NCBI GenBank assembly: GCA_963971425.1
Contig: OZ020522.1
Location: 2,888,168 to 2,952,167 of the forward strand
Direction: 5' to 3'
DNA: 64,000 bases
Source of the DNA: Bryoerythrophyllum caledonicum
Taxonomy: Eukaryota; Streptophyta; Bryopsida; Pottiales; Pottiaceae
The notes under the pieces: generated by a model
Database searches by the model: none
The model's input: only the letters and a program-made list of their open reading frames with translations
What the model was told of the DNA's origin: nothing
Position numbers and translations under genes: made by a program
Shown: one piece after another, positions 8,102 through 51,483 of the stretch
How the letters are laid out: every line of letters starts with the position of its first letter
How positions within the stretch are numbered: the first letter of the stretch is position 1

Positions 8102-8137
8102 TCCAGTGTACCGGGTACCAATGGTCGTCCACGCCAC

Positions 8138-14124: not shown

Positions 14125-14354
14125 AGAGCACCAACAAGAGGAGCAAGATCACGAGCTGAACAAGAGGAGCAAGATCACGAGCTGACCAAGCAAGTCGAAG
14201 GCTAAGGATGGAGGGTGAACCGAATTAACTCAGGGAGCCCCTTTTCTTTTCTCCCTCGAACCTCTTCAATTCCATGTGTATGACTTGAACCCTAATTTTC
14301 TAAATACAAAAACCACGCGGAAGCGTTGCCAATTTTTCGGTAGAATTAGGGTTT

Positions 14355-23912: not shown

Positions 23913-24741
23913 GAGTAGATAGATTAGAAAGTTGGCTTTCCAACAAGCTCAAGAACATGCGAATCGGAGTTGTGACGACGAAGATACAGGCGGCGGAGTG
24001 AGGACGACCAGCTGGAGGATCGGTGGCGGATCTCATACGGCCTCAGGTTTTCCCTCGTCAGTAGCGGAGTTCTTGTCCAATCGGGCTAAGATTTTAGGAG
24101 TAGATAGATTAGAACGTTGGCTTCCCAACAAGCTGAAACACGTGCGGATCGAAGCTGTGACAACGAAGATACGGGCGGCGGAGTGAGGACGACCAGCTGG
24201 AGGATCGGTGGCGGATCTCATACGGCCTCAGGTTTTCCCTTGTCAGTAGCGAGGTTCTTGTCCAATCGGGCTAAGATTTTAGGAGTAGATAGATTAGAAC
24301 GTTGGCTTTCCAACAAGCTCAAGAACGCGCGGATCGGAGCTGTGACGACGAAGATACGGGCGGCGGAGTGAGGACGACCAGTTGGAGGATCGGTGGCGGA
24401 TCTCATACGGCCTCAGGTTTTCCCTCGTCAGTAGCGAGGTTCTTGTCCAATCGGGCTAAGATTTTAGGAGTAGATAGATTAGAACGTTGGCTTTCAAACC
24501 AGCTCAAGAACGCGCAGATCGGAGCTGTGACGACGAAGATACGGGCGGCGGAGTGAGGACGACCAGCTGGAGGATCGGTGGCGGATCTCATACGGCCTCA
24601 GGTTTTCCCTTGTCAGTAGCGGAGTTCTTGTCCAATCAAGCTAAGATTTTAGGAGTAGATAGATTAGAACGTTGGCTTTCCAACAAGCTCAAATATGCGT
24701 GGATCGAAGCTGTGACGACGAAGATACTGGCTGCGGAGTGA
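23913..24741 (+). repeat. 185-bp tandem repeat in LTR 2 (4 full units plus partial)
   Basis: Units begin at 23,913, 24,098, 24,283, 24,468 and 24,653 (partial). They are the same family as in LTR 1 with one more copy, which accounts exactly for the 185-bp length difference between the LTRs. Confidence 0.95.
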
Positions 24742-24972
24742 AGAGCACCAACAAGAGGAGCAAGATCACGAGCTGAACAAGAGGAGCAAGATCACGAGCT
24801 GACCAAGCAAGTCGAAGGCTAAGGATGGAGGGAGAACCGAATTAACTCAGGGAGCCCCTTTTCTTTTCTCCCTCGAACCTCTTCAATTCCATGTGTATGA
24901 CTTGAACCCTAATTTTCTAAATACAAAAACCACGCGGAAGCGTTGCCAATTTTTCGGTAGAATTAGGGTTTG

Positions 24973-25644: not shown

Positions 25645-28092
25645 TTTTGGTGCGTCCACCGGGAGGAGGCGTGTTCATGGTTTGATTGTGCTAATTGTTC
25701 TATCGTTGGATGTTAGGTACAAAAGCAATTAGCCTTATGGCATATGGAGCAGCATAGGGCAACTTGAGGTAAGTGCCCAATTTACTCATGAATGGTTAAG
25801 TTATTGTTGGATGGTGAATGACTTGTGAATGTTTGAAAGTATGGTGAGTGCATGGATGCCAAGTTGTGTTTAAAGGTGGGGGTCTAGAAGGGAGTGTGGA
25901 GATCCCGACCCTCCAACCACAAAACACCTTGTGTTGGGGGGATCCCCTTCTAGGCTTGTGGCTTGAGTTGAGTAAGGGGCCTAGGGGTGAAAGGTTGAGG
26001 CCCTCCCACGGAAATCCACGAGGATTTCCAGTGAGCCCCTAGGTCGAAGGGGAAGGGTGCAAGTGCCCGGGTATGGGACAAGGGCGCCCCTTCCTTCCCC
26101 CCGCGCTTGACTAACCACCAAGGTAAGAACAATTTGGTGTAACTGGAATGGTTGAATCAAAAGTTGCAAGTTAACGCTATGTATGTGTGAATGAGCCACT
26201 TGGAGGGGAGTTGGAGTCGTGGACGCATCCAAGACGTAGGGGTGCTGTTTGGAAGGAGCGCTGCGTACGGTATGTGCACTACACCCTCTTTGTAGGACCA
26301 CGAGTAGTAAATAGGACCAACTTGGATGTGGTGACCACACTAGGGTTAGAAAACCCTGATTTCCCACTTGAGCCGTGTGGAACACTTGCCTTAGAACCGC
26401 TAGGTTTGGCCAACCACGAAATTGCATGCAACAAATCTGTTGCTAACAAGTGGATTGGCTGGAGTTGCTTCAAGGTAAGTTATCCCCCTCTATAACATTG
26501 TATGTGACTTATTGGTTGGCCTTAGCATCGATAGAGTGCGATTAGGTCCACGGTCGACTTCAACTAATGGTGACAGGGTGGCTGGAGATGCATCGAGGTA
26601 TGTCTTCTTCACAGTGATAACATTGTATACACACCTTGTTGCATGCCGTCCCGTGATTGAGTCGTTTTCCTCCTAGTGGGTAATGCCTAGTTCAAGGTGG
26701 TAAAAGGTGGAAGGGGGGATACCAAAGATACCGAGGAACCCCACCTTTTATCAAATTGAGGTCTAGGTCAGCCCCACAGTAAGGATCTGTACCGTGTGGC
26801 GCCAGTTGGGGGACAGCTTTCCAACGGGGTGATGCTCGTGGAGACATCCCTCAATTCGGTTAGCTTTTTGTCGTTTGCCCTTGGAGGGTAGTCCTTAATA
26901 GGATTCTTCGGCGGCTTCATCGAGCTAAAACTCCACCACTAAAAATTGGGTCTTGGTCTTGGGTGAGTCCATCCTCGTGATAGAATCGGGAGTAGGAGTG
27001 TTGGAAACATCCACTCACCGATCGAATTAGGCCGTGCTTCGTGTAGTTTCACCCACGACCCTTAAACCTTGGATGGAAAATCTTTCGGGGGAATATGACC
27101 ATCATCAACACACAACAAGATCTTACTCTTAGACTTTAGAGTAGATGTCCCGTGCCACAAGGTCCCAAAAACCTTCCCTCACACCACCGTGGGAACCGGC
27201 GAGTGAAAGAAGTAGGTCTAGGGAACTCACTGAGGACACGGCGGAAGGATTCTTGGAGGTTCAGCTAGAGGTTATCCCAGCTCCTCCCCTTCTTTTTCCC
27301 CCATCTTTCCTTATCCCTACATTTGATCCAGTGAACACCACCAACACCACTAGCCCACGAGGCAACACCTCAGCCCCTACCATGGCCTCTGGAGGGCCAC
27401 CCCCGGTTCGGCCTCCCATCAAGCCCTTGGTTCAGCCAAGGGGTTTACCAATTGTAGTACCGGAGGGCTTACAAACGGCGCCTATGCCACCCAATTTACC
27501 CACGTTTAGAGGAACTAGGGATGAAGACCCCTCCGCACATGTGGAACGGTTTATAGAGCTCCTCACTACTAGTCTCATCACCAACACCGGGTATTTCCTA
27601 GTGTGGTTTTCGTGTACCTTAAAGGATGCCGCTTACGAGTGGTATAGGAACCACCCCCCCAACACCTTCCAAGACTGGGATAGCCTCATGAGGGCCTTTT
27701 TGGAGCACTTTAGACCCGAAGTAGGTCAAAGTAATGCCCTCACAGCCCTAGCCGCGCTACGCCAAGGTCCAGGGGAGGATATCACGACATACATTAGGAG
27801 ATTCGACCTGGTGGTTACAAGGTTCGTGGGAAACCTCCTCACCAATGACACCTTAACCCAGTTCTTTATCCAAGGGTTCAACAATGAGGGAACCATTAGG
27901 GAGATTTTGAAGGTCCGCCCCGCATCGTTAGATGAGGCCAAGGCACAAGCTAGGCTAATAGAACAGGTGGATCGAGACCAAGAGCGCATGTGGAGGAAGG
28001 AGGATCACCATATTCCTAGTTTCATACCCATCCATGCCAAGGGTAAGGGACCAGTCTTAGAACGTAACCAAGGATCCACAGGCGCACAAGTT
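25645..28092 (+). mobile_element. Second Ty3/gypsy internal region, cut by the assembly gap
   Basis: Immediately after LTR 2 come a primer-site-like TGGTGCGTCCACCGGGAGG (25,648-25,666), a leader and the start of gag. The arrangement LTR-internal-LTR-internal is what unequal recombination between LTRs of two copies, or tandem insertion, would leave. The first ~400 bp differ clearly from the first copy, while from about 26,075 the two are almost identical. The sequence ends in N at 28,093, so the rest of this copy is unknown. Confidence 0.85.
27145..28092 (+). CDS. Gag, partial second copy
   Basis: Near-identical to the gag at 16,521, with the same N-terminus (MSRATRSQKP) and capsid blocks and no interruption up to the gap: about 316 codons. 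Small differences include ELLTTS for ELLTTC and YEWYRN for YEWCRN. The 3' end is lost in the N run, so the frame drawn across the gap is meaningless. Confidence 0.85.
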
Positions 28093-28292
28093 NNNNNNNN
28101 NNNNNNNNNNNNNNNNNNNNNNNNNNNNNNNNNNNNNNNNNNNNNNNNNNNNNNNNNNNNNNNNNNNNNNNNNNNNNNNNNNNNNNNNNNNNNNNNNNNN
28201 NNNNNNNNNNNNNNNNNNNNNNNNNNNNNNNNNNNNNNNNNNNNNNNNNNNNNNNNNNNNNNNNNNNNNNNNNNNNNNNNNNNNNNNNNNNN
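28093..28292. other. Assembly gap (200 N)
   Basis: Exactly 200 N. It joins gag of the second Ty3/gypsy copy to unrelated hAT-like sequence. A round 200 suggests a placeholder of unknown true length. Confidence 0.98.
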
Positions 28293-28382
28293 CGGAAGTC
28301 TTGAATATCAGAGTTTCTTTTGGAACTCCTGATATTTCTTCCACATACTACCTATCACGTTCGTTCATTTCTCGATACTCTC

Positions 28383-29275
28383 CTTGGTATATCGAAATCA
28401 CTATGGTGCAAGGCAGGAAGACCGACTCCCTCCAATGCAATCTTTGTCACCGCATTTTTGCAAGAAGGCTAGAACGACAGCTAAGTCATCTTGGGTACGA
28501 AGAACTCTCTAGCAAGCTCAATAGCAATGTTCGCCTCTGCACCAAATTGACAATCCGCGTACAGACTATATTTTAAAATTGTCGTGGCCACTACCCGAAA
28601 CACAATGGAGAATTTTTCTCCGAACATTGCCCCACCCCACCATTGAAATCTGTGCATGCCTCAGAATATAGCACGCCCAAGTCCACTGGTGGAGATTCTT
28701 GTGTAGGGTCGACTCAAGCCCCCCCCCGTGATTTTACCATCAACCATGGTTGAACCGACCCCACCTTCCACGACTTCACCAAACAAGGGAGTGTAGCTGC
28801 CACCTTCCCCAGATTAGTGAGGCAATCCGTGCTCAAAGAGAGCTTTCAAGAAGTGGAGCGGCGAGAGCTAGACAAAGTGTGGGCGAAGTTATTCTACGAA
28901 GCAAACGTGTCGTTTGCTGTAGCATGGAATGCTGCATTCAAGGAAGCCTTGATGAAGACTGTTTCTTTCAAAAAACCATATGTCCCACCTTCTTACCATG
29001 ACATTCAGACAAGGTTGTTGGGACAAGCAAAGGCTAATTTGGTAGCACAACTCAATAAAAGACTATTCCAGAGTGTTCGGACGTTTGGAGGAACTCTAGC
29101 CATAGATGGGTGGACATCTGTGACTAGTCGCCCTCTGTGCAATGCAATGCTTGTCTCCCGCAAGAGAGCTCTTCTTGGGAGCTGTAGATACTACGGACGA
29201 AGAAAAGAACACTGTCACGTAGAGAGTCTTTGCTTCAGGAAAACCCAGGGTTCTTTGCTGCATTTAGTTTAGAGA
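28383..29275 (+). pseudogene. hAT transposase, N-terminal half (BED-like finger and DUF659-like region)
   Basis: A BED-like finger, LQCNLCHRIFARRLERQLSHL (about 28,430-28,490), is followed after several breaks by a frame from about 28,817. That frame carries ARRELDKVWAKLFYEANVSF in slightly variant form, YVPPSYHDIQTRLLGQAKAN and the signature GTLAIDGWTSVTSRPL (about 29,090-29,135), as in DUF659 of plant hAT proteins. A frameshift near 29,180 then hides VDTTDEEKNTV in another frame, after which the homology stops. The BED finger would bind the transposon ends; DUF659 starts the catalytic region. This is the opposite strand from the hAT at 10.4-12.4 kb, so it is probably a different copy. Confidence 0.65.
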
Positions 29276-31654: not shown

Positions 31655-33270
31655 AAGCGAGCCGAGAAACATGGAAGAGTGAAGAGCACCACCACCAAAG
31701 CGCCACCGATCGTGAAGGTGGTACCGGAGAACCCAGCGGAGGACAAGCATCTTCACGTCTTGTTCTACTTTTTCGACAAGATGGGGTGTTCTGGTCTGAT
31801 GGAGGCAGCGTGGGGAATCAAGGAGGAGCGGATGGTGACAGAGTTGATCGGCACTCCTGACAACCAATATGACGGAAGCCTTCGAGCATACCCGGAGAAG
31901 TAGACCCGATTGGAGTGGAAGTGGACCTACGGCTTCCGGGACGGAGGCATCAAGTTAGCGGAGCGGAAAGACGACCTCATGGACGGGGAGTTCCACGGGC
32001 CTGCTGACCCGAAGGATGGCTACACGACAGATGACCTAATCGACCGATAGGCCTGGATCGTGATAGGTTTTCTAAACCCTATCTTCTATCCGAAGAAGCC
32101 CAAGCGTCCGGTGCTCAAATGGGCAACTACTTTCTTAGGAGCGATGCGGGGGAGATCACCGTGGATTGGGCATCGCTCATGTAGGACTTGGTGGAGAGAT
32201 TGATCAAGAGCCTCCACCGGAATAGGAAGGTTGGATCACCACTTCCGGCCTACCTGACGCATCTCTACTTCCGGCACAAACTGCTGAAACCGGAGGAGCA
32301 CGACGAGTACGAAGAACTTCTGACTATTCAGAAGTACGGCAGAATGGAGACCGACTTCGAGGAGGAGAAAGAAGATGCGGAGCCACCTTCGGCGGAAACG
32401 CCTCAGACGCGGAAGCAGAGTCGCTCGGTGCAACCGGAACCGGCGCCAGCGGAGTCTCCACCAACACGTATAGACACAGCCACTGAAGACCCGGACGTTG
32501 TAGGACCTTCAAAGCGACTGGAACGATGCCCAACTCCAGACCTTCCGGTACTCACTGGAAGACACGAAGACGACATCATGGAGCTGCTTGAGCACGTAGC
32601 ATGGAGAGCCACTTGGATCAATCAACACCTCAACGACAACACCTCGATGTTATACGAAATCATGGGGGAGCTCTGGGTCGAGGATGCTACGGAGATCATG
32701 CCATGCTTGAAGAACCCCCGGAAGACCTACTTCCGACTACAGGCGGTGGAGGAGCAGCAGCGATCAATACTCCAAGCCAGGGCAAAAGTCCAACAAGATC
32801 TGGCGGTAATAAATGCAGCATTGGCGGAAGCACAAGCAACCAGAAAGGCAGCAGAAGACAAGGCGGCCGCATCAGCTCACTTACTCGTTGAGGTCCGGGA
32901 GGCATTGAGTTTTCCGGTTGACATAGTCAAGCAGAGCCTCCTCTTCAACGAGCGCTTAGAGAAGGAAGGAAAGGTGCACCAAAGGCAGATCATCCGATTC
33001 CTTATGGACCACGCCCGAAAGATAGAGAAGACATGGGAGCAGATGCAACTACTGGTCAGCAACGCCACAAAAGTTGCGATCCAGGAAGAACCGACTGCAC
33101 CAATCCCCACCATTGATCTCGACTTCTCTCCAGATGTAGCCGGACCTCCAAGGGATGCACGGGAATCTTTCGGAAAAGGTAAGCGGCCTGTGGGTGAGGC
33201 CTTGGGCACACCTGATGCAGCTTCTCCCAGGCCATGTGGCAGGGCTCCTCCCAACAGCCCGGTTTCGTGA
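31655..33270 (+). pseudogene. Unrecognised repeated protein family, copy 1
   Basis: Homologous to the copies at 50,046-51,483 and 52,926-54,950. Shared blocks include KSTTTKAPPIVKV, LFYFFDKMGC, MVTELIGTPDNQYD, GEFHGPADPKDGY, VIGFLNPIFYPKKPKRPVLK, the AYLTHLYFRHKLLKPEEHDE block (about 32,250-32,310), a Pro/Ser/Arg-rich linker and a C-terminal coiled coil (QQRSILQARAKVQQDLAVIN). It lacks the start codon region and promoter seen in the other copies. It has TAG stops at about 31,901, 32,048 and 32,182 and a one-base shift near 32,145. The downstream 360 codons (32,188-33,270) are open. I do not recognise the family; the general layout recalls gag-like plant transposon proteins, with low certainty. 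Confidence 0.6.
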
Positions 33271-35056: not shown

Positions 35057-35066
35057 GCTTCAATCC
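35057..35066 (+). repeat. Target-site duplication, left (10 bp)
   Basis: GCTTCAATCC, identical to 46,701-46,710 and directly abutting the left terminal inverted repeat. Confidence 0.8.
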
Positions 35067-35116
35067 CAGCGACGCTATCTTGTGAGCGATGAGCGGTGAG
35101 CGGCGAGCGGCGAGCG
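35067..35116 (+). repeat. Left terminal inverted repeat
   Basis: About 50 bp. The block GCTATCTTGTGAGC (35,074-35,087) is perfectly matched at the right end; the outermost 7 bp are less conserved (CAGCGAC against CATGATT). The inner part is built from GAGCGGTGAGCGGCGAGCGG words. Confidence 0.85.
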
Positions 35117-35449
35117 TACAAAACTCTGAAAACTGGAAAAAAATCACAGTTTTTTTTTTAAGTGTGAAATTTTCGGCAATTTGGGCAAAACTATGAATTT
35201 TGGAGCACTTTTCTTTTCTAATTGCTAAATTAAGTAAATACCCTATAACCGTGGTCACTTGTGGAACAATTTTTTTGGACTATTGGGCCTTCTTATCTTC
35301 TTGTGCTTTTGTTACAATCTACGTCTACTATTTTTAAATTTAGAATGATCACATTTAAATCTTGTACATCAGGTTTAAAATGTTGGTTTAGGCATGACAA
35401 AATTTATTATGTATAAATATCCACTAATTTGGACACAAGGTATACTGCA

Positions 35450-35559
35450 GGGTATTACATAGGTATCAAAAGGGTATTGCCTAGGTTTATAATGGGTATC
35501 ACATAGGCATTACTTGGATATCATCCACGTATTACAAGATCATCACATGGGCAGTAAAT
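35450..35559 (+). repeat. Left subterminal array, five 22-bp units
   Basis: Units such as GGGTATCACATAGGCATTACTT begin at 35,450, 35,472, 35,494, 35,516 and 35,538. The core TATCACNTAGGTATTA is partly palindromic. The array lies 383 bp inside the element end, mirrored on the right. A likely role is a transposase-binding site, by analogy with subterminal repeats of other DNA transposons. Confidence 0.8.
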
Positions 35560-35801
35560 GGGATCACTTACATAAATCCAAAGGGATTTTTAGAAAAGGT
35601 TCATAGTCTCCACTTTGAATTCAACTAGTACAAAACTCTCCATTGCGTATGGTAGTATATGTGAAGTACGCCAATTAACAAATCATAACAAACTCAATAA
35701 GTACATGAACTAAATTCACGTGCACGTCTACGAATCTGCAACTACGTCTGAGCAATCTAAGATTGTAGATTTTTTCGAGAAATACGACATCATTTCATTT
35801 C

Positions 35802-38800
35802 TCACTCTTGTTCGGCAATGTTTGCAAGCTCTAGAATCCGCATGACTTCGTTGAAGCTGTAGCTTGGAGCATGTATGAATAAGTCCTCTTTGTAATCCAT
35901 TTTACAGAGGTAACGTAAGATGTAATAGACATGCTTGCAATACTTCCATTGTCCCTTCTTTCCCAATGCCTCCGATTGCATCTTCAAAAAATCAGGGCAT
36001 GAACACCCCGGAAGGTCTGTGAAGGTGATGCAATAGGACTTGTCCTTTCCTGAATGAAGAGTGATAACGCATCCCCATCCGGGATACGGTATGGCATAGA
36101 GGTTGGAGACGTAACAATTATTCATAAGAGCGGCGCTTGACCACTTGTTGCGTTGCTCAGTTGTTGGAACATCTGTTGTTCTACGAATCGCATAGCCGTT
36201 TCGAAAGGTGTGGTAAGAATTCGGGTTCACTGGAATAGGAAAGTGCGATCGCGGAAGGGGCATGTCCATAGACACTTGGAATTGTCTTCGTGGTGAAAGA
36301 ACTCCACGCTGCTGCAACTGGAAACCTGCTTCTTCCAACGCTTGTACCTCCTGCACTGTTAAATTAGTGCCAAGCTTCACAGGCCAAGTCATTGGAATTG
36401 CTGGCCAATCAACCACAAATGGTTTTTTCGACCCCTTCACACAACGATTAATGTCATCGGGACAAAACCAGAATTCAGCTGAGACATTCCGTGGTGATCT
36501 GTAATCTTTCTTCATACCAGCATATGTGGGGGCTGGAGTCCCATGACTGCCACGCCCAACCTTAGTGTTGCACTGCTCACTAGTGTGAGCTTGCAAGGCT
36601 TGGCATTTTCGAGCAGACTTTTTTGAGAGGCGGGCAATGTGCCACTTCGATGGATCACAATCCGATTCCAAAACGGATGTTGTATGTTGGACTCCAAAGT
36701 CTTGTCTGGTGAAGGCTTCTTCAATACGCGCTCGAGTCACCCTTTGGCCATCACGGGGGATAGAGTAATTTACCGTATCAGATCTGTGGGAATCATGGGC
36801 AGACCCAGGTGGCATGTCAAGCTTGCGCTTGGTGGACCCAAAAATTTCTGCTCCTTCTAAGCCGTCCGTCCTGGTTAGTAGATCCTCAGCCCCAGGAAAG
36901 TTCCTAACAGCCTCAGCAATGAGTTTAGGATCACCTGAACGTTGCGCAGACCGCAAACGAAGCGTACCTTTGTCCGGGCCTTTACCAGACGTGCCACCCT
37001 TCAACCATGTCCGATACATAGTGATCTGCATGAAAGCACGAATGAGGTCGTCCACGCTTGCCGCGTACAAACATGTCATTGTATTTCCAGATTGTTGCAG
37101 CCACCGGTTGTGGACTGTTTCCGCAAGGTTGCAGGAAGGCATGTCGGCTCTCTCGTCAAGCGTGAGATCCTGAGAAAGTACAATAAATGTCACAAAAATG
37201 ATCAAAAGTCTCACTTATATTGAACATGGGAGTTTTTAAAAGTAATGGGTAAAGAGGGCTTACAAGTTGCATAGCACCGCCCCATTGTCGATATCGAAAG
37301 TGCCAGAACGCCATCCAATCCTCTAGGGCACGACGACCAGTTTCGGTTGTGGCACCAGAAGACACCCACCATGCACGAAGTACGTTGTACTGCGCTTCAG
37401 CCTCCTCTTGAGTCTTTGCGTTCTTCCAGACTTTGCAAAGGGCGATGTGTTGCTCTCTGAAGCTGGGTAGAATGTTTTTGTTGGTGGCTCGCTGAAGACA
37501 TTTGGTCCAATGAAATAAGCAAGTCCGTTCTTTGTTATCCATAGGCTTCTCCTTGTCGCCGGAGCCATAAACTCGCCGGACGGCGTGCCAATTCGCTCCA
37601 GCACTATCTGCCATAAAGCCTTTGAAATTTGTCTCCTCTAGTACGTGGTTCTTCATTGTGCCATTCAAATTCTCCCAAAACAGTTGCTGGGCTTCAGCGT
37701 CCTCCGATTGCATGTCGCACATGGCGATTGTCATGACTCTACAATACTTACTATCATAGACATGGCATGCCATGGTAGTCCAATCCTTCACTCGCTTTAC
37801 ATGATCAAACATCAACCAACAATCTTGGAGATCCCCCCCGGCTTGCATACGCTTTACAAGGTCAACACCACTACCTGGACGATCAACAGACATCTTAAAA
37901 ACAAAAACTTTACCTTTAGATTGACCCGGAAACTTGTTTTCATGAATAAACTCGAACTTGGACGATTCCTTCAGGTCCATGATGTTGTCCATCACACCTT
38001 TTCCTCCGCTATAGAACCTCTTGCATGTTGACACAAGGTTTCTGATGTTTGGAGAAGAAAGAGTCTCAAATTGATCGAGGACAACATCCATAGATGCTCC
38101 AGCTAGGCCCGACGATCCGGAGCCCGGACGGATCAAGTAGTCGGAGAGGAACGTCTTACTCGCAGCCATGATGATAGCGGAATTAGTACCCTTTGGTGTA
38201 CGCTGGACTTCCTTTGCAACGCAATCGTGTATGACGTCCATTGCCGTTTGATCAACGCCTTTTGAAATGGGATGATGATGATGCCCAAGATGGATGGCGA
38301 CACGCGTGCGTTCTGGATCGCTAGACGTAACGTAATAAATTCGAGCATCACAAAAGGCGAGACAAATTGGAGGGGTTTGACACAGCTTACATGCCAACGT
38401 TGATTTGTCGGATGGTGCTCCGTTCAATGGAAATGGGGTGAAGGCAAACCCGCTCCACTTGGTTTGATTCGTGCGACCATCATTCCTGCACTTGTAACCA
38501 CAATGAAAATTGGGGCATTGAAGATGTCCGGTACATGTTGACTTCCGATACGTGAGGCCGAAATCGTTCTTGATATTTGTCGTCATAGTCCTACACCATG
38601 TGTGACCGTCGTACTGTTTACTCATTCCATCGAGGCCTCCTCCGAATTGCAGAGGAATACCCTCTGGAAGAGGTGGCAATTCAAATATCACGTCTCCATT
38701 ATATTTTGGAGGCAGATACTTCACTCGCTGTAAATCCAAGCTATCTAAATCAAGACGTGATAATTCAGACCTGGACCCCTTTCTAAGACTAGTTGTACGG

Positions 38801-39363
38801 ACATGCAGAAGGATACTTCGTACGTTTCTAGACGTAGGATGGACAGGAGGCTTACCTAAGGATACAGATGGAGACATTTCGGATATGGAAGGAAGTAGAG
38901 TAGACACATCGAGAGGAGTTGATCTTTGGGAATGGAACGGGTTGCTTGACTGACCTAAGTTCAAGCCAGAGACATCGTCATCCTCAGTATCGCTCAGAAT
39001 GTGGACGCTTGGGTTGGACATTGTGCCCGAACCAGGCCCAACTAAAGTATCACCGGATTCGACCGGAGGAGTCATAATGGCTGTGGATGCGTGACCGGAC
39101 ATTTGAGCATCTGAGACTCCGTATACTCTGAATGAACCGCGACATAAATTCCACACGAATCCTTCGGCATCATGGTCCTTCACTTGGTAAATGGACTGGA
39201 CGAGATTGAGATTACTATCAAACACCTCTTCTTCAATTTCAACTGTTCCAATCCTATATCCAAATCGAAGACATAGCAATGACTCGCGGACAATGACACT
39301 GCCATCTTGAGAAACGGACATAATAAACGGAACGCCCCCTTGATGAGAAGTTAGTGAAGCCAT
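35802..39363 (-). CDS. Mutator-like transposase with WRKY-GCM1-type finger and SWIM zinc finger
   Basis: Two exons (39,363-37,264 and 37,169-35,802), joined by a 94-bp GT-AG intron (donor GTAAGC, acceptor TTTCTCAG), give about 1,155 codons. The ATG at 39,363 (MASLTSHQGG) is the first in frame. A Cys/His-rich DNA-binding region (about residues 245-370: CTGHLQCPNFHCGYKC...HLGHHHHP) resembles WRKY-GCM1 fingers of Mutator-like elements. The DDE region includes WLMFDHVKRVKDW (about 518), FMADSAGANWHAVRR (about 584) and CLFHWTKCL (about 614). The SWIM finger is CSCPDFLK...WKYCKHVYYIL (about 1,080-1,120). It would excise and insert the element in the nucleus. No stops or frameshifts are seen. It reads divergently from the methyltransferase gene. 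Confidence 0.85.
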
Positions 39364-39940
39364 AGACCCCAACTCTCAATGATTGATTCCTCAGCTATGG
39401 ACGATGACTCAGGAATGCGCAAACACTAAGAGGCTTTCTTAGCGTCCTCTTTGAAGTGAAGAAGTTCATAAAGTGTGATTACGGTGGAAACATGTATTCA
39501 TGGAAATGGCTATTGTCATGCAGTCTTTCAAAAGCGTCATGAATGAATATGACAAAAGGCTAAGGACAAGAAACTTAGATTAGCAAAGCAATGAAATTAA
39601 ATATAGAACAACTTTGCGTATGCCTCTTAAAGGTGTAGGGAGTATTGCGGCGCTATTCTAAAATTGTTTTGGTAAAAGTGAAGTATAATTTTATACGACG
39701 GCTGATCCATAAAATAGAAAGGGCACGCCATGTGGGATGTAGTTTGAGTTCAAAATAAAGGCTGACAACATCGTTTAATATAGCCAAAGCACTTGCGCTC
39801 GCACATGTGAAGGCTGCGATAAGGATTCATAAAACCAGACAATCTGTCGAAGGAGAAGCGTCAATAAATTTAGGGTTGTGTTAACATGGTGGGGATGTTT
39901 TTGTAGAGTGGACTCGATAGTTTGAGATTTAGTGCTGAGG
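39364..39940. promoter_or_regulatory. Bidirectional promoter region between transposase and methyltransferase genes
   Basis: The two start codons point away from each other across 577 bp, so both promoters must lie here or overlap. The symmetrical string GTATAATTTTATAC at 39,683-39,696 could act as a TATA element in either direction, about 245 and 320 bp from the two ATGs. This is a candidate from position and symmetry only. Confidence 0.45.
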
Positions 39941-42900
39941 ATGACTAGGAACGTTAGAGGGCAGAGACGAACAACACATTATTCAAATTCCAAGCAAACC
40001 GCTGCATTGAAAAAACGTAGAGTACAGAAGGCCTTATTGGAATCTCAAAATGGAGAAGTAGACAAACCTGATTGGGCTGAGCGATTCAGAGAGTTGAATA
40101 GTATCCACGAAGGAGACCCTGGAGTATCATCAAGGGTTCAGGTATGTCTCTATTTGATTGACTAGTTGTGATCTACTTATATAGTGTGGAAAGCGTAGGG
40201 TTTGTGTCAATCATCTTTTGATATTTGGTTTTGCTGCTTTAAATGTTTTGTAGGTGACACCTAGTTTTGTGCACTCTCTTGAGAATCAAGAAGAAATAGA
40301 CTCTTTGCAAACAAATCTGATGAGCGGAACAGAGAGATCAATGGCATCGGAGAGCTCGCATCGAGGATATAGGGATGATAATGATGAAGTTGAAGACTTT
40401 GAAGTTCAAAGCGGGGGCACGGTTGAAGCTCCCGTCAACGTTGAGAATCGGTTACGGTCTTCAAGGATTAGAAATGGTTCCTCCTCAAGGACAATGCTGT
40501 CTACAGGTCAGTGTCGTCATGGAAGCGCGGACAACATCACGATGGTATTGCAGGAGTCGGGGCAAGTTCGTTCGATTCAGGTACTTTTTTATACAATTAT
40601 TTTCAAAATAAATGAATATGTTTACAAGTTGCACTGCTAAGAGCATGGTGTAGGTATTTTAATTATTATATTTAGATTTATGATTTGAAAGTAGTACGAC
40701 TATAAGTTAGAACTAAGAAATATGGGGAGCAACAATCTTATGCTAAACCTTCCATTAACATTCATTTTGCTCTTTCATATGAAGATTTTCTTAGCTTTGA
40801 AGATGTTAAACAAATTCTTTTCTATAATGTAGAATTCATTTCAACATAAATCAATAATTTGTACATAATTCGGGCAAGCACAGGTAAATAGGCGGTGGCC
40901 AAATTTACCTGCGATCGGGGTCCGGTCGTCGCTCGGTTGGCGCGTGGTCACTTGGCTACTGCTCTGGTTGACGCCCACTAGGTGCGCTCGCCCCCAACGA
41001 CCGCCTGGCCGCCGCCCTAAACGCCGGGCCATCGGCCCGGCCGCCACCCGGGTCGTCCGAAGGTGGTTTCTAAGGTTGCTGAAATTTTTGAAAACATGGA
41101 ACTCCGTGGAGCTCGAATGTGGGCTGCCGTGGACTGCCATGTTTTCAAAAAAAATTGTGCTCCTTGAAAACCACCTTCGGATCCGAAGGTGGTTTCTAAG
41201 GTCGCTGAAATTTTTGAAAACATGGAACTCCGTGGAGCTCGAATGTGGGCTGCCGTGGATTGCCATGTTTTCCAAAATTTTTGTGCTCCTTGAAAACCAC
41301 CTTCGGATCCGAAGGTGGTTTCTAAGGTCGCTGAAATTTTTGAAAACATGGAACTCCGTGGAGCTCGAATGTGGGCTGCCGTGGATTGCCATGTTTTCAA
41401 AAATTTCAGTGCTCCTTGAAAACCACCTTCGGATCCGAAGGTGGTTTCTAAGGTCGCTGAAATTTTTGAAAACATGGAACTCCGTGGAGCTCGAATGTGG
41501 GCTGCCGTGGATTGCCATGTTTTCAAAAATTTCAGTGCTCCTTGAAAACCACCTTCGGATCCGAAGGTGGTTTCTAAAGGTCACTGAAATTTTTTAAAAC
41601 AATGAAATACCCATTCCTTGTATAAATTTGGTTGCAAGTGCAATTTTCTTTCTTGTAACTTAGCTCTTCTAAGAAGCACCTAGTTCATAACTTCATCCTC
41701 ACTAATTCTTGGGCTTTTCATGCATATTTCATATTCTTTGAATGCGTGGTGTTATGCATGTTTTGAATTCTTGTGTTTTGATAGCTCCATTGATTATGAC
41801 CCGGATGTTTATATTTTTGAGAGGAAGAGTTTCTGATAGTTTGTTTACTCAATGCAGACTAGAGACGTGCATATGGGCTCCTCATCACGGGGTGATGGAA
41901 ACAATATGGCTCTTCAAGTTTTAGAATTTGGGGAAGATCCAGGGTTGAAGACGACCGAGTTGGCATTACGGAGGTCCCTGCGTGGGACTTCTTACGACGT
42001 ATTGCAGAAGTCCACTTGCGCATACGCTCAAGAACTCCACATCCCACTCTGCCGCATGCTCCCAATGCCCGATGTGAGAGTCCCGCTACGGAGCGATGTC
42101 AAGAAGCTTAAGGGGGAGTTTGTAAAGGGGTATCGGCCTGGCTCCGCTTGCTTTTACGTCGCAGTGAAGAGCTTCTCGTTGGTGGAGAAGGATGTGTCAC
42201 CAGATGTTCGAGCTTTGTGGTTCGAATTGTGGCAAGAGGAGGAACGGAAGTTTGAGGCTCTTCTCGCGAGTCAACCGGAGTATGCGCCATTTCGCAACAA
42301 GTTCTTTTTTGTCTGGGATGGGAATCACCGCCACACTGCATGGATGGAGGTGATATCCAGTCTTCATGCCACTCATTCCGAGTTCCATGTGCCGGTGAGG
42401 GCGGTTGTCATTGAGCCGACTGTGGAGAACAGACACATTCTCCTTAATGCGATGACCGATTGGAACAAGTAAGCACTTTTCCTTAATTCCATCTCTAATT
42501 TATTTTCATTATTAAATACATGCTTCTATTTCACCTGAATTCTATATCATGTCCTTCAGGCAAAAGGAGATAGATCATATCGGTCAGCAGCTTACCCATG
42601 AGTTGAAGAGGATCCAGCATTTTGGATTATTGGACTTTGAGCAGCTCAAAGGTCTGATAAGCGAGTCTGACTACGAGGCCAGCCTTGCAGAATGGGGGAA
42701 GGCAACGAAGAAAAAATGGTATCACATGACGCACGATGCATTTCTGCGGCTCATGTTCGAGGTTCAACAACTAACTCATACTCTTGATTCATGCCTATTG
42801 CTCCATGTAGTTTCTTGTACTTTCATACTTTAAATCTAATACTTCATGAGTTGGTAATTGCAGCGTGATTTAATTGCCGTTCAGGAGGAATGCATTCGAC

Positions 42901-45833
42901 AGTATAGGGACACTCTCGTTACTCGCAATGGTGAGGACCGCGAAGGGAGTTCTGCTGAGTTGGTGAGTAAGTGCACAGACGCGGTGCAGAAGAAGGTCTC
43001 GTGTCAAACCAGTTTCAATCGACTATTGGCAGTTGCCAATCCGGTTAATGGCGAAGACTTCTTCAAAGAGGTTTGATCTTTTAAGTTTTCTTACTGTCCA
43101 CAGTCCTATTCATTGTTTCTCATATTTTTTATTTCCAAATTAGTTTGAATGTATACCAAATTGACACAAATTTTGTGTGTCTTTTGTTTAGGTGTTGCGT
43201 CATTTTGACATTTACCAGTTCAAGCCGGAGATGACATCGGAGAAGTTACAACTCTTTTGTACCGCGAAGGTGCCATCAAAGTTCAAGGCACGCTGGTGTA
43301 AGTGGTGGAACATGAGCAAGTTGAGCAGGGAGGAGTATCACTTCCCAAAATCTCCAGCTTCAGACACAAGTCTTCGAGGGTGGATCGATAGAGCTGCCTT
43401 CTGGGCTGGGGTAAGTTTTCCATATCATGGCATTTTAGTTAATGTAGATTTTCATTGCTAATATTTTCTATGTCTAACTTGTTGTTTGGTTGGTTTCAGC
43501 TGGAAGACGAATGTGAGAAGAAATTTGCGGAGATTGTCCAGGAGGACAATCTTGTCATCCAGACGAAAGGGCTTCCCAATCCCGTGAAAGGGATTGGAGC
43601 ATGGATCGAATCGTGGTGCATCAGGCTGTGGGACAAAGCGTTTTCTGCCCATGTGGGGAAGAAGATTGGGTTCACGAAGACCGAGGATTTTCTAACGCAG
43701 CCCGAGTGTGAGAGATCGATGAAGAGGGCAGTGCTTCGCTACTTTTGGATAGAGCTTGTTGCCAAGGGAGCCATGCAGCCTGAACAGCTTCCGATTCGTT
43801 TGAATATGTGGACGAATCCCACTGATGTCCAGTGCATCTTCACGGAGGTGCAGTTGCGACGCTTCTCTCGTCACCACTTGGAGCAGTGCCCTTGGTTCTT
43901 GGAGCTGAAGGATTCTGATCCTACCCCGGGCGAGGAGATGCAGCTAAGGTCTCGCTGTGACTCCTTACCCGTCTCAGGTGGTGATGACGGGATGCTTCCT
44001 CCATCGGTCCCCTCAATGGCTGCGCAAGTGGATGTAGAGTTGACTACAAAGAGAGAGAGGCAGCAGCTACAAAGGCAGCAAAGGTGGCAGCTAAGGCGGC
44101 GGAGAAAGAAGCCCTCAGGGTGGAGAAGGAGACTGCCAAGACACTGAAGAAGGAAGTCAAGGAGAGGAACAAAGAGTTGGCCGCGTTGGTGTTGAGGGAG
44201 GGACCCGAGAAGCTCATTGCTCAATTTGGGGTGGGTGCATCGATTGCCATTCCTGCTGCGGTTGCACCGTTGCACGAAATTTCGCCATCAGCCAGCAGCC
44301 GGCCCTCAGCATTCATTACGAAGCCTTCGCAGACTGTGTACACAATCCCAGTGATCGAGCAGATTGATTCTTCTGTTGGAGTGTTGGTGATGTGTGAGAG
44401 TGCCCTCTCCATCATGCCTCTCTTTGACGATATCTCCGAAGATGCTGACTACCCCCCAGTTTGGACCGAGTTGCGCCAATTTGCGAAGGCGCATGCTGGC
44501 TCTAGGCTCCGAACCTTGCGTGGAGATCCTTGTGATCTTGGTTTGGTGGACATGGTGATCATAGACGTGCCGAAGGGGTTGCCGGTCCCAGGGATTCATT
44601 GTGGCACTAAAGTGCCCAGTTGGAACGAGCATCCAACTCAGCTGAACGAGAGAGGCAAGATGGAATCTCCTTTCATTCACCGTTGTTTTGAGATGGCTGG
44701 AGAGCTGCTTCGTGACGGAGCGCCACTCATCGTGTTTTATCCAGACTCGAAGTTCATTTCCAATGAACTTCTTGGTTGGGCAGACTGGGCAGAGTTCGTC
44801 GAGGAGACAAAGTGGTTTGCCATTAATGGCTTGCCACTCTCGCGCGATGGGCAACCCGGGCGCACGCACAAGTGCTTCATGGTGAAGTGTTTTGTGTGGA
44901 AGTTTGAGTCAGCAGCCCCTTTTTCTTTCTATGATAGGGTGGAGCTGATTCGCGAAGGGATTCAGCTGTCCTCGGATGGTCACTTGACCAATCTTATTAC
45001 ACAGGACACGCTGACGATGAGAGGGACCACCATGGAGCCATTGCGGGGAGCGCGGGAGAAGTCTACGAACCTCATGGAGGCTTTGATTGACCTTTGCACC
45101 CAGGAGGACGACGTAGTTTTTGATTTGACAGCATCTACTAGTAAGTATTCTTACTACGTCAAATTATATTATCCTTCTTTGTATTACAACTCTAGTACTA
45201 ATTATTTTGTTTATCTTGTACAGGGGCATCAATCAAGGCTTGCAAGGCTCTAAAGCGCCACATCTTGGCATTGGAGTCTGACCTGGATTTGGTTAAGGGG
45301 GTCCTCCAACCCTTGATTCCGAGATCGGTGGAGGTGGAGTCAGCAATGGCACCAGCGGTGGAGGAGGAGTCTCGTAAGCGCCCCTTGGAGCTCGATGACG
45401 ATGAGCCAGAGGTGAAGACGGCTCGTAAGAGAACTTGTAAGTAAGTTCTCTACTTCTTTGGTGAATTTTGCATCCATGTGATTTAGAGAGTTTGTAATTT
45501 TATTTCTGACTTTAACAACACAATTGCTTTGATTTTTGCAGTTGGTCGAGGTCGTTGATGGCTTCACCATCAACAACGCGGGAGGGGATGTTGTTAAGGT
45601 TGTCAAAGCTGGTTAATAGTCCGCCACGGACATATGATTTGGCTCCTTGGAATGGTGGTGTTGCAAATGCGATGGCAGCACAATCATCCCCTCCAGGTGT
45701 TCCTCGAGCACCCCGTCATAGGTCCATCGCAAGGCAATTCGTAGACGATGAGGCTGATGGTAGTGGGTCGGAAAGCAGTGCCCCTTGTTTGGACGAGGAT
45801 GACTTTGATGACTTTTCAGCGGAGGATTTGTGA
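39941..45833 (+). CDS. ParB-like domain and beta-class N6-adenine/N4-cytosine DNA methyltransferase fusion
   Basis: Inferred GT-AG exons: 39,941-40,141; 40,254-40,580; 41,858-42,468; 42,560-42,761; 42,864-43,070; 43,192-43,410; 43,500-45,140; 45,224-45,440; 45,542-45,833. They total 3,917 nt, two more than a multiple of three; the extra two fit a GA-run slip at 44,051-44,060. About 1,304 codons otherwise. Residues ~245-370 resemble a ParB N-terminal domain, with FFVWDGNHRHTAW then VPVRAVVIEP. A Lys/Glu/Ala coiled coil lies at ~780-830. The methyltransferase (~920-1,165) has motif IV-like MVIIDVPKGLP, then GAPLIVFYPDSKF, and C-terminally the motif X/I order EKSTNLMEALIDLC...VVFDLTAST...ACKALKRHILALESD. 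The acidic tail ends DDFSAEDL. Prokaryotic relatives methylate DNA. The Gly-rich motif and DPPY are altered, so activity is uncertain. Confidence 0.7.
41057..41603. repeat. Tandem array of four 126-bp hairpins inside intron 2 of the methyltransferase gene
   Basis: Each unit starts CCGAAGGTGGTTT, passes CTGAAATTTTTGAAAACATG, a ~37-base loop (AACTCCGTGGAGCTCG...), then the complement CATGTTTTCAAAAATTTCAG and ends AAACCACCTTCGG. The arms are thus about 40 bp and nearly perfect. GGATCC junctions fall at 41,179, 41,305, 41,431 and 41,557, exactly 126 bp apart. A half-unit follows to about 41,603. Since 126 is divisible by three, both strands stay open for over 200 codons; these are artefacts. It resembles a tandemly amplified foldback MITE. 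Confidence 0.9.
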
Positions 45834-46206
45834 TTCCTCTATTTGGATTGTTTTTTAATTTTATATGGGGCCTACTTTTGTTTTATATTATCTTTGAAAT
45901 TGTCGATGTCCCATCTTATATTAATTGAAACACATGGAATGATTTAACACATTATCAAACAACTCTATTCCATTATTCAATCCATCCATAAACCAAGGTA
46001 TTGTTGTGTATTACATGTAGACAAAACTGAGTACTTTATAAAATTCATAAGAAATTGTAGTAATGTAGAGAATTTACCACGTCTTTTATAGTACGCTAAA
46101 CAACATGAACGTGTTTCCGTGCTTCGTACCATACGCAATCGTTGGTATCAACCACTTTTTATTGAAGTATGTCAAATTCTCAATTACAGGTGGTTCCCAC
46201 ACCACA

Positions 46207-46316
46207 GATATCACCTAGATATGATATGGATATCACCTAGGTATTATATGGATATCACCTAGGTATTATATGGATATCGCCTTGGTATTATATGGGTATC
46301 ATCTATGTATTGTAAG
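46207..46316 (+). repeat. Right subterminal array, five 22-bp units
   Basis: Units GATATCACCTAGGTATTATATG (with variants) begin at 46,207, 46,229, 46,251, 46,273 and 46,295. They end 384 bp inside the right terminus, matching the left array in unit length, number and distance. Confidence 0.85.
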
Positions 46317-46651
46317 GGTATGGCCTTCCATTAATCCTTTTAATTTTTCAATTATTGGGAGAGTTTTATTCTCAATGAAATAAATACAAATACGACCAAT
46401 GAGTAATTCAAACCTGTTTTGTTATCCTAACCTAAATACCAAACCCATAAGTGCCCCTTTCATTTTGAAGAAAAATTGTTGCTCTAGGACCATCAAGTTG
46501 TCAACAATTCATACTTCAATATGTCCAAATATTGTAGAGTTTTACATGATTTTTTACATATGTCAAGATAGACTAAATATAACCTACGGCCATAGGCGTT
46601 GCTTTCAAATTTTGTAAAAAAATTGTGGAAAAAAAAACAATAAAATTGAGT

Positions 46652-46700
46652 GCTCACCGCTCGCCGCTCGCCGCTCACGGCTCACAAGATAGCAATCATG
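46652..46700 (-). repeat. Right terminal inverted repeat
   Basis: Contains GCTCACAAGATAGC, the exact complement of the left block GCTATCTTGTGAGC, preceded by CGCTCGCCGCTCACGG words. It ends at CATG, next to the right target copy. Confidence 0.85.
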
Positions 46701-46710
46701 GCTTCAATCC
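46701..46710 (+). repeat. Target-site duplication, right (10 bp)
   Basis: GCTTCAATCC, a perfect copy of 35,057-35,066. Confidence 0.8.
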
Positions 46711-48292: not shown

Positions 48293-50045
48293 TTGGAGTT
48301 ATACTTTACAAGAACTTGGTTGAGTAAAAGGTGCAGCCAAAAACCCAATGTTTTCTTGAGACACAAGCTCTCTGCTACGACACCGGAGACGACCAAGAAG
48401 ACCCCCCTTGCGACAGCTCTGTTCCAGGGGACTCCTTCAGCCTTCCGGATACCACTTTCTCCTCCTTCCTCCACCCGCCAGAAGACGACTTTCCCACTAT
48501 CTAGGAGTCATTCGGACGTAGCCACCAGCCCCGAGACCACAATGGAGACCCCAATCAGTACGGTAGAGAAGGCCTCTCAAGCGGCACCCTCAACCGACCA
48601 ATCGGAGCCGGAATTCTCAGTTTCCTGAAGTAGACCAGTACCGGATCCGACTCCGGAGAAAGCAGAGAGTGGGAGCATCTCCGATGCGTAGGAGTGGACG
48701 GAACAAAATGACTCTTTAGTTAGGTTTAGAGTCGAAGTTAGGTAATTCTGGTTGCTAGGATTTTTGTAGCGATTAACAATAGGGCTCATGATTGTACCCG
48801 GCTACTAACCCATAGGTTAATTGAAAACTGAACTTGTTGACCGGCGGAAAATCAGGATCTGAGATCCACAATTTTTGGATCTTAGGTTTGAAATTCCGGA
48901 TCTTAAGGGATAAGATTTTTTTTTTAGGATAGGATTTTCCAAATTACACGCAGATTAGGTAATACTAAGAGTAGGAAACTCAGTTAGTATTTAGTAAGAT
49001 GAGTTCTCTCAACTCATTATCTTGTTTTTCCTTACGTTGAATATACTTTGGAATCTGTTACTAGAATTGCTACCTAGTTCATGTAACGAGAAATGTTATC
49101 TTTGTGAGATATATGATCCGTTGTGGTAGTACTTGTTGTAGAGAAGTTCTTTTGAAGTGAGTGGTACTTGACTTTACTTGAGAGTGAGCCGGTTGGGATT
49201 TACAACGGGAGAACGCTTGGAAGAGTTGGAGGTGTATTGTAGAGTTGTTTTTGGTAACCTCTAGGGTCCGGAAGAAGCAGGAGGGGAGGAGATGTATTGC
49301 AGAGGCGTTCCTGGTAATCTCTAAGGCACGGAAGAATCCGTGTGAACCCAAATTCCGGTCAAGGCCAGAGTTTACCCCCACGATAGGAAAAAAACCTGCT
49401 ATGTAAGTCTAGAAGGAGTCCTCTTCAGTAAAGTGTGCCACTTTCTCTGGAGAATTACAACAGTGCTACCGGAACGTCGTTGTAGTCCGGACTTGTCTGT
49501 GCGTGACCGGGTCTGGAAGGCCATCCGGATGTTGTGAGAGCCTAGGTCTAGTAGCAACAATCAATCACCAGTTAGCAAAGTAGGGAGAGTGGACGTCCGG
49601 CCACTATAAGTCCCGAAGCAGTGGATGTCTAGCCACTTAAAGTCACAAGGCAGTGGGGAATCCGGCCACTTACACAAAAGATGATCAGTGGTCTTCCGGT
49701 CACTCATTTAAACCTTCCGGAAGCCTCTCTAAGGAGGAACAGAGATAAATCAAACTACCCTTCAGTTCTCCAGAAACTAGTTCTGGAAACCACTGTATAA
49801 CTCCCGGAAATTAGTTCCGAAAAGTTTTGTATGAATTTCGGAGTCCAGTAGGATCCGGATCCGTAAGTGAATAGAATAGATAGCCTAAGTGATCAATAGT
49901 TGAGTTGATATTGGATACTCTGAAAAGATCAATAGATCTCTCTGGGAACGAAACCGGAGTGGTTTACCTTGGAAACATTTAGTGATGATTGAGTGCATTC
50001 GAGAGGAATACTGACTCTGCGAACTCCAACACGGTTCCTCTCAAA
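48293..50045 (+). pseudogene. 3' fragment of the unrecognised repeated family, with its 3' flank
   Basis: A 111-codon frame (48,293-48,628) has a Thr/Pro/Ser-rich composition (ATTPETTKKTPLATALF) similar to the C-terminal tail of copy 3. The following ~1.3 kb aligns with 54,951-56,180: shared words include ACCCGGCTACTAACCCA-like text, TCAGCTCATCATCTTGTTTT-like text, GGAGAACGC...GGAAGAG and ACGGAAGAATCCGTGTGAACCC-like text. It joins directly at about 50,045 to copy 2 in the opposite orientation. This is therefore the tail of one copy fused to the truncated tail of another, a head-to-head-type rearrangement or nested insertion. Confidence 0.5.
49588..49704 (+). repeat. Four short AGTGG...CCACT hairpins (first flank)
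   Basis: AGTGGACGTCCGGCCACT (49,588), AGTGGATGTCTAGCCACT (49,620), AGTGGGGAATCCGGCCACT (49,652) and AGTGGTCTTCCGGTCACT (49,687). Each has 5-bp arms around 8-9 bases, and they are spaced about 32-35 bp apart. Confidence 0.85.
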
Positions 50046-51483
50046 TCACTACGCTTGCCGCATTGCTGGCCAGCAGTTGCATCTTCTGCCAAGTCTTTTC
50101 CATCTTCCGGGCGTGGTCCATAAGGAACCGGATGATCTGTCCTCGGTTCACTTTTCCTTCCTTCTCTAAGTGCTCGTTGAAGAGGAGGCTCCAGTTGATT
50201 GTGTCAACCGAAAAGCTCGGCGCCTCTTGTACTTCCGCGAGTGCTTGAGCTGATGCGGCAACCTTATGTTTTGTTGCCTTTCATCCTACTTGAGCCTCCG
50301 CCAATGCTGCATCCGCCACCGCCAGGTCCTGTTACAATTTCGCCCGGACTTGGAGTATTGATGGCTATTGCTCCTCCATTGCTTGTAGTCGGAAGTAGGT
50401 CTCCTGGAGATTCTCTAACCGTGGCATGATCTCCGCAGCATCCTCGACCCGGAGCTCCCTCATGATTTCGTATAACATCGAGGTGCTATCGTTGAAGTGT
50501 TGATTGATCCACGTGGCTCTCCATGCTACGTGTTGAAATAGCTCCATGATGACGTCTTTGTGCCTTCCACTGAGTTTTGGAAGGTCCGGAGTCGGGTATC
50601 TTTCCGGTCGCTTCAAAGGCCCTCCAACATCCGGGTCTTTAGTGGCTGTGTCCATCCGTGTTGGTGGAGATTTTGCTGGTGCCGTTTTCGGTTGCACAGA
50701 TCGACTCCGCTTCCGTGTTCGAGGTGTTTTGGCCGGAGGTGGCTCCACATCTTCCGTCTCGTCCTCAGAGTTGGTCTCCAGCCCGCCGTACTTCTAAATG
50801 GCCAGAAGTTCTTCGTACCTGTCGTGCTCCTCCGGCTTCAGCAATTTGTGCTGGAAGTGTAGGTGCGTCAGGTAGGCCGGAAGTGGTGACCCAGCCTTCC
50901 TATTCCGATGAAGACTCTTGACCAACGTCTCCACCTGGTCCTACATGAGTGATGACCAATATACGGTGATTTTCCCTTGCATCGCTCCTAAAAATGTGGT
51001 TGTCCACTTAAGCACTAGCCGCTTGGGCTTCTCCAGGTGGGAAAAAGGGTTTAGAAACCCTATTACAATCCGGGCTTGAGGGTCAGTTAGGTCATTTGTC
51101 ATGTAGCCGTCCTTCGGATTGGCATGGCCGTGGAACTCACCGTCCACAACATCGTCTCTTCACTTTGCCACCTTGACGTCTCCGTCTTAGAAGCCGTAGA
51201 TCCGCTTCCATTTTGACCGGGTCGACTTCTCTGGATGTGCTCGAAAACTCCTATCGTAGTGGTTGTTGGGAGTCCCAATCAACTCCGTCACCATCCGCTC
51301 CTCTTTTGTTCCCCAAGCTGCCTCCATAAGTCCAGCACACCCCATTTTGTTGAGGAAGTGGAACAAAATCTTGAGGTCCATGTCCTCGATTGGGTACTCC
51401 GGCAGCACCTTCACGATTGGTGGTGCTCCGGCGGTGGTGCTCTTTACCTTCCCTGGCTTCCCGGCGCGCTCCCCTCTAGCCAT
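50046..51483 (-). pseudogene. Unrecognised repeated protein family, copy 2
   Basis: The minus-strand ATG at 51,483 (MARGERAGKPGKVKSTTAGA) begins a protein co-linear with copy 1: IVKVLPEYP, LFHFLNKMGCAGLMEAAWG, MVTELIGTPNNHYD, then GEFHGHANPKDGY, FLNPFSHLEKPKRLVLK, AYLTHLHFQHKLLKPEEHD, the Arg/Ser/Pro linker and a coiled coil ending TWQKMQLLASNAA. It is cut at about 50,050, lacking the last ~80 codons of copy 1. Stops are TAG and TAA where relatives have CAG or CAA (for example EEQ-TAG, AKL-TAA, AI-TAG) and TGA where copy 1 has AGA. Function unknown; the protein looks soluble, highly charged and probably self-associating through the coiled coil. Confidence 0.6.

Follow-up and report, generated by a model that had tools for sequence, protein, structure and literature searches.

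Introduction

Accessory proteins of transposons that combine a ParB-like with a methyltransferase domain are already known as a class, as set out in the relevant part of PMC12477816. An example there is that of Sola1-1_Ec32 from Ectocarpus, a ParB-like and N4/N6 methyltransferase accessory protein of 1104 aa, and such proteins are proposed to bind and modify their own transposon. In prokaryotes, ParB blocks occur fused to adenine-type methylases, as in Bce_0392, and a nickase or NTPase activity is reported for the ParB domain of a Bacillus cereus ParB-methylase (PMC5512222, in the portion dealing with these proteins). Accessory genes of another kind are found in VANDAL elements, where the VANC proteins, whose domains are DUF1985 and DUF287, target tandem repeats in non-coding parts, an intron of VANC21 included, according to the passages of PMC5735166 on these targets. 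Lastly, retrotransposons with C5 methyltransferases are described from dinoflagellates and Klebsormidium in the sections of PMC5890265 on such elements.

How does the element characterized here, from a 64-kb stretch of Bryoerythrophyllum caledonicum DNA that was analysed as a whole and is called the window below, compare with these systems? Like Sola1-1_Ec32, as far as the account of the latter goes, it is a eukaryotic DNA transposon whose accessory gene runs in the opposite direction to the transposase and combines two domains of prokaryotic type in a single protein of some 1100 aa (1104 in Sola1-1_Ec32 and 1136 in L129, a relative introduced below), the ParB part being recognized here at the level of a motif. 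Unlike Sola1-1_Ec32, its carrier is Mutator-like with a 10-bp duplication and not Sola1, motif IV of its methyltransferase-like domain is eroded in 26 of 26 sequences and a palindrome array lies within the gene; the two are likened by description. A preliminary description had claimed a prokaryote-type ParB-like and methyltransferase-like protein, with introns, on a eukaryotic transposon, and this fits the accessory-protein class as PMC12477816 presents it.

With fusions of the Bce_0392 type, as portrayed in part of PMC5512222, the protein shares a ParB block joined to an adenine-type methylase; unlike those it is eukaryotic, its gene has introns, its catalytic motifs are lost and its ParB block is apparent at the motif level only. 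As in the VANC/VANDAL system, an extra gene of a DNA transposon is accompanied by tandem repeats where the element does not code for protein, the gene's own introns among them; the anti-silencing function belongs to VANC, whose domains in the relevant part of PMC5735166 are DUF1985 and DUF287, and the comparison is one of analogy. The retrotransposons of PMC5890265, as covered there, likewise are mobile elements with a DNA methyltransferase-type gene under purifying selection, but differ in being retroelements with C5 enzymes whose key residues are conserved. Among the records listed by literature searches there was no report of a Mutator-like carrier of such a protein, though one may be contained in Iyer 2011 or Petroll 2025. 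New here are the Mutator-like carrier, a catalytic motif that has been lost although the domain is under selection, and the long palindrome arrays before exon 3 at both loci.

A Mutator-like carrier

The carrier is a Mutator-like transposon of 11,634 bp (35067-46700) with an open transposase frame, known as a whole element from one locus, that in the window. Its features outside the accessory gene are as follows:

35057..35066, no strand: left target-site duplication GCTTCAATCC
35067..35116, plus strand: left terminal inverted repeat, about 50 bp, with tandem GAGCGGY heptamers
35449..35566, plus strand: left subterminal 11/22-bp repeats (GGTATYACMTA-like)
35802..37169, minus strand: transposase exon B, with NLAE (third acidic residue region) and a SWIM-like CSC..CKH at its end
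37264..39372, minus strand: transposase exon A, an open frame
46207..46327, plus strand: right subterminal 22-bp repeats
46651..46700, minus strand: right terminal inverted repeat
46701..46710, no strand: right target-site duplication GCTTCAATCC

MULEs as a rule have target-site duplications of 9-11 bp. Here, GCTTCAATCC is an exact duplication of 10 bp directly outside both element ends, for which we estimate a chance probability of the order of 1e-4 or less. The terminal inverted repeats, about 50 bp at 80% identity and thus shorter than in many MULEs, contain inner arms (35074-35115 and 46652-46693) that agree at 90% over 42 bp, and a 21-bp pattern of GAGCGGY heptamers matches six times in the window, always at the two element ends (mean of 100 shuffles, 0.00). 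The preliminary description had called the ends and the target duplication clear, and the inverted ends and the exact duplication bear this out. The subterminal repeats follow one consensus in equal orientation on the left and right, the two stretches aligning at 74-79%; they hold 12 of the 15 matches to GGTATYACMTAGGTAT in the window, where the chance mean is 1.15 per window.

Between these ends, the transposase on the minus strand and a nine-exon gene on the plus strand form a divergent pair. Exons A and B of the transposase join in phase over a 94-bp GT-AG intron into an open frame with 1158 codons before the stop, the start codon being uncertain, as no ATG occurs before codon 4. Inspected by eye, the D..D..E spacing resembles that of Mutator transposases and the end is SWIM-like (CSC..CKH). 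The profile search gave a weak match to PF00872 (E 0.11, below cut-off), and no MULE or SWIM profile is among the matches listed.

Outside the element, the window contains a Ty3/gypsy element (16521-22725) with gag, RT, RNase H and integrase. Part of another copy (27145-28332) encloses an assembly gap of 200 N (28093-28292), and shared blocks of the copies are 10.4-10.6 kb apart. Tandem 185-bp repeats at 13481-14150 and 23913-24767, about 10.4 kb apart, belong to the gypsy copies or to the DNA flanking them. A DUF659-like fragment (28817-29272, plus strand; E 1.7e-4, below cut-off) is presumably a broken hAT transposase, and inverted copies at 31656-33093 and 50032-51470, 77-82% alike, lie 17-19 kb apart. 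A C5 cytosine methyltransferase piece at 9188-9978 (plus strand; PF00145, E 1e-10 for 9475-9975), upstream of which a motif-I-like part can be seen by eye in another frame, stands just downstream of gag-like and aspartic-protease frames at 8102-9007 (plus strand; PF13650, E 6.8e-4, below cut-off). The stretch 8102-9978 is probably a retroelement carrying a DNMT, as in the Klebsormidium and dinoflagellate elements treated in part of PMC5890265.

The accessory gene and its relatives

The accessory gene occupies 39941-45833 on the plus strand:

39941..40141, plus strand: exon 1, open frame with splice signals
40254..40580, plus strand: exon 2, open frame with splice signals
41056..41601, plus strand: array in intron 2, a 126-bp unit repeated 4.3 times in tandem
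41858..42468, plus strand: exon 3, ParB-like block, WDGNHR at 42314-42331
42560..42761, plus strand: exon 4, 72% identical to L129
42864..43070, plus strand: exon 5
43192..43410, plus strand: exon 6
43500..45140, plus strand: exon 7, frame-shifted near 44040-44065
45224..45440, plus strand: exon 8, remaining motif I region (ASIKACKALKRHILALE) and a basic stretch that we take to be NLS-like
45542..45833, plus strand: exon 9, acidic tail and stop codon

All eight introns are bounded by GT-AG. The GC content is 43-55% in the exons, 25-33% in seven of the eight introns and 42% in intron 2, which holds the array. Exon 7 encodes a long predicted helix followed by the methyltransferase-like domain, with DVPK at the position of motif IV (44564-44575) and, further on, DLTAST as the first part of motif I. 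Two frames of this exon overlap near 44040-44065, and when the exons are simply joined, codon 805 is the first stop; the shift may be an assembly error. With its gene frame-shifted here, the window copy would therefore depend on intact copies elsewhere.

Single-exon searches yielded 24 relatives for the exon with the methyltransferase domain and 20 for that with the ParB block, at 45-75% identity. Five contigs (5331, 219580, 289902, 312168 and 362076 bp) appear common to both lists, and these equal sizes suggest that the relatives of the two exons are linked; eight of the 20 ParB-exon relatives end with NK at precisely the donor site used in the window. A scan of genome contigs returned one locus, L129 (CADCWO010000058.1, 4691 bp), filed under a cyanobacterial MAG. 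It comprises exons 3 to 9 at near-equal lengths to those in the window, with six introns at positions equal to the window's (after exons 3 to 8) and an open frame of 1136 aa plus stop that is intact where exon 7 of the window is shifted. As the introns are of the spliceosomal type and shared with the window gene, L129 is probably eukaryotic DNA in a cyanobacterial MAG bin, that is, a contamination of the public record. P0004 is close to L129, and the two are not taken as independent.

The gene of nine exons put forward in the preliminary description is therefore supported in its splice sites, with GT-AG at every intron and six introns shared with L129, and in exons 3-9, which are matched there, but not in its joined frame, which is broken in exon 7. 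No relative of exons 1-2 was found in the searches, L129 beginning too near exon 3 to include them; these two exons are putative parts of the gene, backed by their open frames and splice signals.

Between the window and L129, protein identity is 51-78% per exon block and dN/dS is 0.137 (Nei-Gojobori; exons 3-8, minus the stretch round the frame shift), a value obtained from a single distant relative with a pooled dS of about 2 and saturation in three of seven blocks. In block E7b, which holds the methyltransferase domain, pN is 0.21 and pS 0.63. At the sequence level, the accessory gene is thus under purifying selection in comparison with one distant relative.

Relation of the C-terminal domain to N6/N4 methyltransferases

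In the C-terminal region the motifs follow one another in the order IV, X, I. This is the order of the beta class of methyltransferases. The methyltransferase-like region that had been proposed is confirmed, with motif IV ahead of X/I, by profile and hhalign comparisons, by which the domain is related to N6/N4 methyltransferases, in the beta order. PF01555 matched the window domain at E 0.00097 and that of L129 at E 2.3e-5, the latter with 24.9 bits and so under the cut-off of 26.7. Further matches were to PHROG methyltransferases (E 1.9e-5 and 1.3e-5), DpnA/M1.HpyAVI in the PDB (E 0.01) and the NCBIfam model CcrM (E 0.0042, far under its cut-off). When exon 8 was left out, the signal was weak: PF01555 matched eight of 23 family members (best E 0.022) and PHROG methyltransferases three of 11 (one of the 11 does include exon 8), and a PDB search with the family profile found no methyltransferase.

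In hhalign, the family (A5) matched six phage, bacterial and archaeal enzymes (A4) at 96% with a score of 69.6, the best of 100 column shuffles reaching 20.0; the six were picked from tblastn hits of the window's domain, a choice that favours a C-terminal match. Taken alone, the part before motif X/I aligned best over 12 columns that place LVDMVIIDVPK at motif IV of the enzymes, with a score of 23.6 where the highest of 100 shuffles was 23.3. A tblastn search of phages at a loose limit gave 31 records, and of the 20 listed 16 are annotated methylases, some of them duplicates of one phage, and four are unannotated; 19 of these 20 cover the same C-terminal part, and no listed match is significant alone (best listed E 0.3). 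The low-confidence AlphaFold model of the methyltransferase part (pLDDT 46) gave 1234 Foldseek rows at E <= 10 and 3 at E <= 0.001, and most of the 50 rows listed are methyltransferases, M1.HpyAVI included.

All five plasmid matches are methyltransferases. The best of them, an archaeal enzyme from Methanomethylovorans (L006:946-1860), also departs from motifs IV and I (DSNY, DLYGGS). A bacterial or phage donor, as had been suggested, is conjectural; the searches found no close prokaryotic relative, the best prokaryotic match being weak (plasmid, E 6e-3).

The ParB-like block and the palindrome arrays

The ParB-like block, which the preliminary description had also named, holds as a motif but not as a profile match. 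W-[DN]-G-[NS]-H-[RHY] is kept in 20 of 20 ParB-exon relatives, with DGNHR exact in 16, DGSHR in one and other one-letter variants in three, and DGNHR is present in the window and L129 as well, in keeping with the DGxHR of the ParB/sulfiredoxin superfamily; PF02195 (ParBc) matches none of the 21 family members. The PHROG ParB profile matches four of 21 (best E 0.09; L129, E 0.14), and hhalign against 52 phage domains, themselves chosen by IDGHHR, aligned 16 columns at the motif only (score 20.1; 60 shuffles reached 19.6 at most). A helix follows WDGNHR in a low-confidence model (pLDDT 48). On the strength of the DGNHR motif and of the ParB-methylase fusions known from the portion of PMC5512222 cited above, identity as ParB is probable.

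Just before exon 3, the 24-bp palindrome ACCACCTTCGGATCCGAAGGTGGT occurs four times without a mismatch in the window array. L129 has an array of 3.7 copies of a 106-bp unit in the same position, and the hairpins of both arrays are very strong (z -13.1 and -16.0). Common to both palindromes is the 10-bp core TCGGATCCGA, present exactly four times in the window and three times in L129; the flanking arms differ between the two loci and are symmetric within each. Loose searches for the core came near chance, with five matches at <=1 mismatch in the window (reached by 2 of 100 shuffles) and four at <=2 mismatches in L129 (19 of 200), and alignment of the whole units of the two arrays did not go beyond chance (scores as high arose in 17 of 300 and in 7 of 300 shuffles). 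We estimate that a shared 5-base half core arises about once in 1000 for a given dyad, and more readily if any dyad is allowed. What the arrays share, the layout and the 10-bp core, is no more than a lead.

Loss of catalytic motifs and a proposed role of the accessory protein

In none of the 26 sequences (window, L129 and 24 relatives) does motif IV have the form [DNS]PP[YFW]: DVPE occurs in 14, DVPK in four, DMPE in two and single variants in six, and the first proline and the aromatic residue are absent from all 26. Of the ten relatives in which motif I was read, nine have D-x-T-x-S-x-G and one ends in S instead; after splicing the motif is DITASTG in L129 and DLTASTR in the window. The glycine-rich form of the DPFxGSG type is therefore not found, the first glycine of the beta-class GSG being a serine and, in the window copy, the last glycine an arginine. 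While altered motifs do not prove inactivity, the C-terminal domain is, judging by these residues, probably no methyl writer, and from the purifying selection on it we infer that it serves a purpose in addition to, or in place of, ordinary catalysis.

What, then, might the protein do for its element? The best explanation, to which we give an even chance, is that the element encodes a DNA-binding factor comparable to VANC and not a writer of 6mA or 4mC. The accessory protein, probably nuclear, would join a ParB-like N-terminal block to a methyltransferase-fold C-terminal domain that no longer methylates. It would bind the element's own DNA, perhaps at the palindrome array by exon 3 or at the subterminal repeats, and once bound could aid expression or movement of the element, either by protecting it from silencing by the host, as VANC does for VANDAL elements, or by keeping its two ends in contact. 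That a dead ParB-methylase fusion specifically binds a parS-like palindrome array in its own gene, and so blocks silencing or keeps the ends paired, is a tentative and rather improbable version.

That the protein is active as an N6-adenine or N4-cytosine methyltransferase and marks the DNA of its element seems unlikely, although the relation to N6/N4 methyltransferases, the proposal made for algal relatives in part of PMC12477816 and the last motif I glycine, kept in nine of ten relatives read and in L129 after splicing, would agree with it. The 6mA or 4mC marking envisaged in the preliminary description is weakened by the absence of a canonical motif IV (0 of 26, DVPE being commonest with 14), by the serine at the first glycine and, for the window copy, by the arginine at the last glycine together with the frame shift.

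Beta-class enzymes often work as dimers, and in the two-subunit methyltransferase of METTL3 and METTL14 the latter is inactive and binds DNA. A comparable inactive half, with its active partner supplied by the host or another element, would account for a domain retained under selection after loss of its catalytic motif and would suit the frequent dimerization of the beta class; we consider it distinctly unlikely, as tblastn of the exons against the window found only the gene itself and no partner, and the other methylase noticed there is of the C5 type in a retroelement.

Very unlikely, in our view, is an active nickase or NTPase in the ParB-like block that serves transposition or replication, with the methyltransferase fold as a scaffold holding DNA, although the ParB exon conserves DGNHR well and nicking by a ParB-methylase has a precedent in the sections of PMC5512222 concerned. 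Against it, no ParB profile match stands clearly above noise. Mutator-like elements often capture genes and the window copy is frame-shifted, but a Pack-MULE-style passenger without function for the element has the slimmest chance, given a dN/dS of 0.137 against a distant relative, conserved introns and relatives on many contigs.

Returning to the element-encoded DNA-binding factor, the known class of ParB-methyltransferase accessory proteins would extend to Mutator-like elements, which include the VANDAL elements and so already have one known anti-silencing system in VANC, and the pairing of the protein with its array would provide a new protein-palindrome pair. If the family has lost its catalytic motif and yet stays under selection, modification is not the whole story and binding may be the selected function. 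Should the binding of the dead fusion to the array in its own gene prove true, an anti-silencing or partition-like system would have been made from a DNA-modification enzyme.
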